In this document: piece by piece, positions 19,329 through 21,949 of the stretch | How the letters are laid out: each line of letters starts with the position of its first letter | Numbering within the stretch: the stretch's first letter is position 1 | Notes under the pieces: generated by a model | What the model was told of the DNA's origin: nothing | Databases searched by the model: none | What the model saw: the letters and a program-made list of their open reading frames with translations, nothing else | Virus record (IMG/VR): IMGVR_UViG_3300010883_000122 | Span: 1-38,294 of that record | Length of the DNA stretch: 38,294 nt | Reading direction: 5' to 3' (one strand) | DNA from: a virus | Made by a program: the position numbers and the translations under genes

Positions 19329-19613
19329 ATGAAAGTAAAAGAACTATTAGAACTACAAAAAGTTATCACTAAAAAAGAAACACCTAGTGATATGGATGGT
19401 GGTAGCTTACAACAACACTACTCAACATCTAAGGATATATATATTTCTATATTAGATATGGATTTAATACATTTAGTTAGGTCTTATTCGAAATGTTTAG
19501 GTAATCATTCTGATGAGCAGAAAGAATTAAAATCTCAAGATATTTTAAATAATTTAGATGTTATAGAAAATAGATTATCTACTGTTAAAGAATTATTTAA
19601 AAATTCTTATTGA
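19329..19613 (+). CDS. 94-aa unknown helical protein
   Basis: The start MKVKELLELQKVITKKETPS was chosen because AGAAGGGA lies upstream and the previous gene ends just before it. The longer in-frame extension reads through that gene. The body is helical and ends KELFKNSY. Its last codons overlap the inverted repeat of the next promoter. No family recognised. Confidence 0.6.
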   Translation: MKVKELLELQKVITKKETPSDMDGGSLQQHYSTSKDIYISILDMDLIHLVRSYSKCLGNHSDEQKELKSQDILNNLDVIENRLSTVKELFKNSY

Positions 19614-19638
19614 CAAACAATAAGAAGTATGATATAAT
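19604..19638 (+). promoter_or_regulatory. Early promoter with 9-bp operator-like palindrome (class II)
   Basis: TTGACA (19610-19615), 17-nt spacer, TATAAT (19633-19638). TTCTTATTG (19604-19612) and CAATAAGAA (19618-19626) form a perfect inverted repeat around the -35. The 18 nt TAAGAAGTATGATATAAT recur as AAGTAAGAAGTATGATATAA in the promoter at 21463-21491. Confidence 0.85.
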
Positions 19639-19652
19639 GGAGAGTTAGTATT

Positions 19653-20902: not shown

Positions 20903-20930
20903 TTGACTTTAAAATTTATTGTGGTATAAT
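20903..20930 (+). promoter_or_regulatory. Promoter of the large structured RNA (class II)
   Basis: TTGACT (20903-20908), 16-nt spacer, TATAAT (20925-20930) with TGTGG before the -10. AGTTCTT (20898-20904) and AAGAACT (20936-20942) bracket the promoter as an inverted repeat. The start region AGGTTAAGA is shared with the promoter at 15599-15627. The expected start is about 20937. Confidence 0.85.
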
Positions 20931-20942
20931 AGGTTAAGAACT

Positions 20943-21037
20943 AATTAACTATAACTAATTATGTTTAAGTATTGTTTAATTATTATTTTAATATTATTTA
21001 TTATATTAATAATATAATATAATAGAATATTATAAAG
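20943..21037 (+). other. Extremely AT-rich leader
   Basis: About 9% G+C by count over 20941-21040. It holds a perfect 9-bp A/T inverted repeat (20999-21007 with 21011-21019). It lies directly after a promoter and before the structured RNA core. It could be a DNA unwinding element or an unstructured RNA leader. Confidence 0.5.
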
Positions 21038-21456
21038 AGTTTGGACTTATGTTTCTTATAAATTCATAAGTGTTTATGGCTGAACAACAATAGCAAAGTT
21101 GTAAGGCATGGTTCTTAAAAAGTATGTCCAAATGGATGAGTGTTTAAGGATTGGTACTGAAGTAGCGTTATCCAGAAATGTGATTTGTCGTGAAAAGGTT
21201 GTAGGTGAGGTCACACAAGCCCTACTAAACTACCAAAAAGAATTAACTTGGTTGACTATTAATGAAAAGTCTTAACTGTGGAAGTTCCACGCCATTGGCG
21301 GATGCCACTACCTAGACGATACAGGATATGGGTCAGTAATTAAGTTCCTGTCTCGATGAATTAACATCGTGAGTATAAAACACACCCAAGTTATACAGGT
21401 TTGAGTAGTACCTTTAATGTGCAATAAGCATAGTAAGAAACTACTCAAGTTTTATT
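21038..21456 (+). ncRNA. Candidate large structured non-coding RNA
   Basis: No gene of normal size fits these ~420 bases. G+C rises to about 37% from about 9% just upstream. Perfect or near-perfect complementary segments are: 21040-21046 with 21126-21132; 21047-21051 with 21065-21069; 21084-21088 with 21098-21102; 21185-21193 with 21211-21218 (one bulge); 21201-21205 with 21221-21225, which makes an H-type pseudoknot with the previous stem; 21244-21251 with 21386-21393, closing a large domain; 21252-21257 with 21268-21275 (2-nt bulge); 21278-21282 with 21286-21290; 21321-21326 with 21346-21351; 21352-21358 with 21365-21373 (one bulge); and 21401-21409 with 21440-21448. It has its own promoter upstream and a terminator-like last stem. 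A 55-codon frame (21108-21275) overlaps it but lacks a Shine-Dalgarno. It matches no RNA family I can recall. Covariation is untested. Confidence 0.65.
21399..21456 (+). terminator. Terminator-like closing hairpin of the structured RNA
   Basis: TTGAGTAGT (21401-21409) pairs perfectly with ACTACTCAA (21440-21448). An inner hairpin TGTGC/GCATA lies in the loop and TTTTATTTT follows. It separates the RNA from the next promoter, which begins 7 nt later. Confidence 0.6.
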
Positions 21457-21462
21457 TTCTTC

Positions 21463-21491
21463 TTGACTTGAAGTAAGAAGTATGATATAAT
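21463..21491 (+). promoter_or_regulatory. Promoter of the replication operon (class II)
   Basis: TTGACT (21463-21468), 17-nt spacer ending TATGA, TATAAT (21486-21491). TTCTT (21458-21462) and AAGAA (21476-21480) flank the -35 in the same arrangement as at 19604-19638, so both are probably bound by the same factor. Confidence 0.85.
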
Positions 21492-21517: not shown

Positions 21518-21949
21518 ATGCCTACAGTTGAAGGAAAAGCTTATTGGGCTAGTATCACTAGACCTAATACAACATTCGACCCTGTGTATCAAGTGGACTT
21601 AGCCATTGATGATACTACTGCTGATGATTTCAAAAGCAGAGGGGTAATAGTTAAGACTGATGATAGAGGTAACATCATTAAGTTTAAACGCAAAGTGTCT
21701 CGTCAAGATGGCACAAACAATCCAACACCACGCTTAGTGGACTCAGCTAAAAATCCGGTGGATGTTTTAGTTGGTAATGGTTCACAAATTAAAGTTCTAT
21801 ACAAAGAATTTGAGTGGCAGTTTGCCGGTAAGAGTGGGAAAAGCTTAGACCTACAAGCAGTCCAAGTCTTAGACCTTGTACCTTATGGTGAGGACTTTGA
21901 TGTGGCAGAGGGCTTCGTCTCTGGGGAAGGTAAAGGCGAAGAATTTTAA
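21518..21949 (+). CDS. Single-stranded DNA-binding protein (T7 gp2.5-like)
   Basis: A 143-aa protein: an OB-fold-like beta-rich body (GKAYWASITRPNTTFDPVYQ at the start, QIKVLYKEFEWQF at ~90) and an acidic C-terminal tail (SGEGKGEEF), the hallmark of gp2.5-type SSBs that contact polymerase and helicase. Length is somewhat shorter than T7 gp2.5 (232 aa) but normal for marine podoviruses. It is first in the replication operon with an ideal AGGAGGG Shine-Dalgarno. Confidence 0.82.
   Translation: MPTVEGKAYWASITRPNTTFDPVYQVDLAIDDTTADDFKSRGVIVKTDDRGNIIKFKRKVSRQDGTNNPTPRLVDSAKNPVDVLVGNGSQIKVLYKEFEWQFAGKSGKSLDLQAVQVLDLVPYGEDFDVAEGFVSGEGKGEEF

Follow-up and report, generated by a model that had tools for sequence, protein, structure and literature searches.

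The 590-nt gap upstream of the single-stranded DNA-binding protein gene (ssb) in the window (the whole 38,294-nucleotide stretch of viral DNA that was analysed) contains a structured RNA, module A (21040-21237, + strand). Judging from sequence and fold, it is a divergent relative of manA, on a previously unlisted SAR11-phage branch of the manA superfamily. We regard it as nearly certain that module A is a genuine structured RNA and akin to manA. The gap as a whole carries two promoters, and between them lie an AT-rich leader, at least two structured RNA modules that are independent of each other (A and B) and a hairpin (C). An earlier note had proposed that the replication operon is preceded by a structured RNA under its own promoter, and covariation, pseudoknots and G-U bias bear this out; the same note had thought of the GOLLD, ROOL or IMES class, which gives way to the manA kinship. 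With module A, the manA RNAs now extend to phages that infect SAR11, which ranks among the most numerous bacteria of the ocean. New are also two pseudoknots supported by covariation, a possible contact between dimer partners, and module B as an unlisted RNA.

The window phage is akin to pelagiphage HTVC115P, the ssb-primase stretch matching at 76% across its full length. The ssb gene (21518-21949, + strand) is so annotated in HTVC115P and showed a weak match to PF21265. Through a motif scan, both promoters named before were recovered on the + strand as 11/12 sites: promoter P1 (20903-20930, TTGACT-16-TATAAT with an extended -10), which lies upstream of the leader in relatives too, and promoter P2 of the replication operon (21463-21491); only three such sites were found in 10.6 kb. 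A second stretch with 79% identity to the promoter P2 region was located at 19604-19650 of the window, and is probably another promoter of this type. The leader between promoter P1 and module A (20945-21034, + strand), delimited by GC content and by the relatives, has 10-15% GC and the core 35-43%, so that the AT-rich leader and GC-richer core described earlier are both present.

In the alignment of close relatives, the gap upstream of ssb is a mosaic of about 235 to 910 nt. Promoter P1, the AT-rich leader and promoter P2 are present in nearly all of them, and modules A, B and hairpin C are gained and lost separately; module A is missing at the ssb site in several, including the close relative HTVC115P. 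The single RNA of about 420 nt assumed at first is thus divided by its homologues into separable modules, A, B (21242-21395) and C (21401-21448). Further small modules, GGCGATACAGTAATCCTGC... and GGGTAGTGCC...ACTACCC hairpins, recur shuffled in these gaps (L006, L083, L036, L243 and L251). The leader (CTATGTTAAAG...TTATTATTATAATATTAATAATAAT in relatives) is kept in three contigs without structured RNA (L013, L025 and L028), which suggests a role at the DNA level, for example as an unwinding element. Single-sequence folding of the window, compared with shuffles, gave z-scores of -0.86 (+ strand) and -2.50 (- strand), which is uninformative alone, and therefore we relied on relatives for comparative proof. 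BLAST of the whole gap against phages returned mostly AT-rich chance matches and promoter-like stretches.

With a pattern of the P3 hairpin of module A we found 81 IMG/VR contigs, with a variant pattern 53 more, and with a pattern from the other end of module A 17 further members, about 150 marine phage contigs in total. A covariance model built from the window's own sequence and 33 others matched the window core at 21071-21230 with 165 bits. The cultured T4-like pelagiphage HTVC008M, which is outside the model, contained one copy (103 bits, E 1.4e-22), located 78 nt upstream of a gp32-type ssb. Exactly one copy was found in 16 of 17 records searched and none in the remaining one. Cellular genomes revealed one full match only, in a 9.8-kb contig of a planctomycete MAG that is probably a phage contig; two of the three genome-contig matches were dismissed as chance.

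Covariation establishes the predicted fold of module A, namely helices P1, P4 and P6 with two pseudoknots. In this compact fold P0, P2 and helix P1 would surround a three-way junction, followed by P3, P4 and P6 (all on the + strand). The 5′ strand of P0 (TTTGG, 21040-21044) pairs with CCAAA at 21233-21237 and shows compensated variation in most clades; P0 is not evident in every clade. The P2 hairpin (CTTATG/CATAAG, 21046-21070) carries the loop palindrome TTATAA at 21056-21061. The five base pairs of helix P1 (21072-21076 with 21226-21230) all covary and are 99.7% paired in 76 sequences. P3 (21078-21107, GGCTGAACAAC...GTTGTAAGGC) is a nearly invariant hairpin. P4 (21111-21119 with 21143-21151) includes the apical hairpin TCC-AAAT-GGA (21127-21136), and a single tertiary pair, 21125-21132, covaries as well (UA 30, CG 3, GC 1). 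P5a (21165-21167 with 21189-21191) encloses two segments, X1 (21179-21183) and X2 (21184-21188), and P6 (GTAGG/CCTAC) occupies 21201-21225. The single strand X1-X2 is predicted from covariation to pair with the loops of P6 and P3: X1 (TGTGA) with 21211-21215 (TCACA), forming PK1, and X2 with 21093-21097, forming PK2. The area of a pseudoknot noticed before, 21179-21225, was therefore right in place and not in its pairings, since the covarying ones are PK1 and PK2 around the hairpin 21201-21225. X1 might alternatively pair locally with the P5 sequence.

Among 76 distinct sequences, 90.4% of the cells of the named structure, pseudoknots included, were paired and 726 cells showed double changes; in shuffles the figures were 68.0% and 231. 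The covariation score was 0.578, compared with 0.169 in shuffles, which do not keep relatedness, and with at most 0.155 when partners were slid by 1-3 columns, which does keep it. PK2 forms five base pairs in 76/76 sequences through ten loop/partner combinations (e.g. ACAAA/UUUGU, UCCAG/CUGGA, AAGAG/CUCUU, UAUAG/CUAUA, and AACAG/CUGUU in a later subgroup); own partners paired in 44/44 cases and swapped partners in 32/352. PK1 covaries as UGUGA/UCACA in the window and as CAUGA/UCAUG, AUUGG/CCAAU and CUGG/CCAG elsewhere, and its pairing of 65.9% is a lower bound, with register slips in some alignment rows. Since G-U pairs outnumber A-C mismatches by 342 to 5, the + strand RNA is the functional molecule.

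These data also refute the reading of the gap as protein-coding sequence, degraded or short, or as structure that arose by chance, which can hardly be true any more. It could draw on the + strand folding, no better than shuffles, and on the small CDS gp008 of HTVC008M (NC_020484; L164 3932-4102), annotated across module A and probably not a gene. Besides the covariation and the G-U:A-C ratio, the lack of a conserved reading frame speaks against it: a frame is open across the core in only 3/76 members, so the conserved protein frame named earlier as a refutation did not appear.

The invariance of P3 might be a search artefact and was checked with patterns from other parts of module A. Through this P3-independent search, 17 of 23 new contigs were members, and P3 was identical bar one change among those inspected. 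A subgroup found via a 288-aa protein gene (L284, L286, L291, L293 and L295) has a longer P3 with the helix AAUGUCC/GGGCAU, and looks intermediate towards cyanophage manA.

Most members have UGCA as the core of the P2 loop, the L087 group has GAUC and L205 has UCGA; cyanophage cores are GACG, UCGA and UGAUCA. The palindrome is nearly always present, with few independent changes, and automatic classification missed part of them; the UUAUAA of the window stands in an AT-rich loop and carries little weight alone. The palindromic loop suggests that module A and manA RNAs may form kissing-loop homodimers. In OLE and GOLLD, palindrome-to-palindrome changes were read as evidence for symmetric kissing loops (PMC12286853).

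Module B (21242-21395, + strand) is a further RNA for which no database family exists. Its closing stem (TTAACTTGG/CCAAGTTA, 21244-21251 with 21386-21393), seen before as a long-range stem, exists and covaries in relatives, and it holds hairpins ACAGGA/TCCTGT and GATG/CATC and one variable inserted arm. The closing stem and two hairpins show compensated variation at 9 of 23 predicted pairs in 12 sequences. One pattern detected module B in 13 contigs, and HTVC115P has a diverged copy before its gene 8 (L252 1123-1254); in L244, L247 and L249 the module is preceded by a promoter-like stretch and followed by a start codon. Hairpin C (21401-21448, + strand, TTGAGTAGT...ACTACTCAA) recurs in relatives. 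The last stem of the earlier note is real, with 14-nt arms that are 86% complementary and a terminator-like look; a terminator scan made no call on it.

Full-length matches to RF01745 (1-192/192) were obtained with L086 (42.9 bits, E 1.2e-11), L206 (39.8 bits) and HTVC008M (25.9 bits), all below the Rfam gathering score of 55.2 bits. We did not file module A under RF01745 because this score test of the family is not reached. Rfam searches gave no family for the window sequence, L119 or L104, and none for module B. The former statement of no known family holds for Rfam with the window sequence; it fails for the relatives of module A that match RF01745 over its full length, and the reverse search agrees. 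In that search, a model made from SAR11-phage sequences (R2) ranked 6/6 cyanophage-type manA loci first, with weak E-values of 0.009-0.2. Full-length matching and the same helix order are found in both directions. The 5′-UTR location in marine phages is also shared, the window clade having promoter P2 before ssb; a place upstream of mannose/fructose, nucleotide, chaperone or photosynthesis genes is not. Cyanophage manA carries a TTGACA-TATAAT promoter directly upstream and occurs at one place in each of 37 cyanophage-type records. PK1 is recognised in it as CUGUA/UACAG and GAGUA/UACUC, with a compensatory change in AG-345-L05. GOLLD, ROOL, IMES, HEARO, tmRNA and group I intron gave no Rfam match (gathering score or E up to 10), and ARAGORN found none.

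In many clades a -10 box is located about 48 nt upstream of helix P1, therefore the transcript is predicted to start at or near P0. A co-oriented ORF follows module A within 90 nt in 112/129 cases, at a median of 25 nt. The usual setting is just past a strong sigma-70 promoter and about 25 nt ahead of a start codon. The downstream genes are unrelated: the window-type SSB, gp32, a Bac_DnaA_C protein beside SSB and many small ORFs, with DNA_pol_A as an upstream neighbour; in cyanophages the neighbours of manA are purL, the major capsid gene and pstS. A 288-aa protein gene was found in 25 contigs, 24 of them with module A, and the other (L300) begins just 38 nt before the gene. Its AlphaFold model (another SSB?) reached pLDDT 34 and was set aside, and PDB and Pfam searches gave nothing useful. 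A specific tie of module A to ssb genes was dropped, other clades having unrelated genes.

The role of manA had reportedly been guessed from cyanophage metabolic genes. The unrelated neighbours of module A speak against a metabolic sensor and in favour of a function common to phages in general. We consider it improbable that module A is a riboswitch that senses a ligand for the gene downstream, the role suggested by the Rfam class 'Cis-reg' of manA. Its 5′-UTR position, complex pseudoknotted fold and conserved unpaired residues would fit, and the mutually exclusive pairings of X1 (P5 or PK1) might be a switch. However, the downstream genes share no common pathway, and neither a consistent terminator nor ribosome-site sequestration was seen, GGAGG being inside helix P1 in some clades and free in others.

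The most likely reading, which we favour tentatively from the sequence comparisons, is a cis-acting leader. An early or replication transcript would begin with the folded module A, which would act in cis on the transcription complex or mRNA that carries it, perhaps through processivity or antitermination like HK022 put RNA, or through protection of the 5′ end; two RNA copies may pair via their palindromic P2 loops. In the window phage, module A is followed by module B, hairpin C and then the separate promoter of the ssb-primase-polymerase operon. Against the cis-acting leader count that promoter P2 separates the RNA from ssb in the window clade, where read-through is not required, that the close relative HTVC115P lacks module A at the site, that P0 cannot be seen in all clades, that X1 has an alternative local partner in P5, and that downstream terminators show no clear excess (putative intrinsic terminators, 6 on both strands against 1.8 expected in HTVC008M, and 3 against 3.8 in the window). 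A wider version, rather unlikely as a whole, takes in all of the manA superfamily, in cyanophages as in SAR11 phages: it would be a general phage leader that dimerises by way of its P2 loop and, whatever gene follows, works in cis on the machinery with which the host transcribes or translates, with module B as a second RNA of the same role.

Alternatively, module A could be a free small RNA released by processing or termination, acting in trans by binding a host protein, RNA polymerase, the ribosome or another RNA. This is possible and somewhat unlikely. One copy per genome, its own strong promoter, unrelated downstream genes and the nearly invariant P3 surface would agree with it, and in the window clade, where hairpin C and then a new promoter follow, an independent unit may exist. 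In most clades, however, the next start codon is on the same strand 12-37 nt after helix P1, and no clear terminator was seen after module A. Part of a replication origin, in which transcription from promoter P1 would open the AT-rich leader and replication would be primed or regulated by all or part of the RNA, is very improbable. An ssb, gp32, polymerase or DnaA-C gene adjoins in several clades, module A is single-copy, and the AT-rich block is kept even without RNA; but most clades with module A have no such block, cyanophage manA adjoins the major capsid gene, purL or pstS, and the GC skew turns at 15.1 kb, where the gene strand changes, and not at the gap. GC skew tracks the gene strand and was rejected as an uninformative origin marker. 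Module A could be tested in the cultured phage-host pair HTVC008M with HTCC1062.

Among known systems, manA (RF01745), an orphan RNA motif of 2010 (Weinberg et al. 2010) with its function unassigned, is the closest to module A (PMC2864571; PMC9964418). Both have the same helix order, the common CUGAAyAA...UAAGG and UUGnGGGUA...AAUCC, PK1, a promoter just upstream, a 5′-leader position and one copy per marine phage genome. Module A differs in that its members stay under the Rfam cut-off (25.9-42.9 vs 55.2 bits) with the window not detected, that it has a short P3 whose loop pairs with X2, that its hosts are of SAR11 type where known, and that its neighbours are replication and early genes. HK022 put RNA acts in cis near an early phage promoter without a phage protein, a role proposed by inference for module A; it is about 70 nt long with two stem-loops, and no sequence relation is known (PMC9378689). 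GOLLD, ROOL and OLE are likewise ornate, with functions mostly unassigned, two of them phage-borne, and their symmetric kissing loops with covarying palindromic cores are the same kind of evidence as that for P2 of module A (PMC12286853). They are unlike it in being far larger (GOLLD often >800 nt), in giving no model match and in a different fold. T4 gene 32 has a structured leader before gp32, with a much smaller pseudoknot. Module A of HTVC008M precedes gp32 in the same way as this T4 leader, and elsewhere module A stands mostly before other genes.
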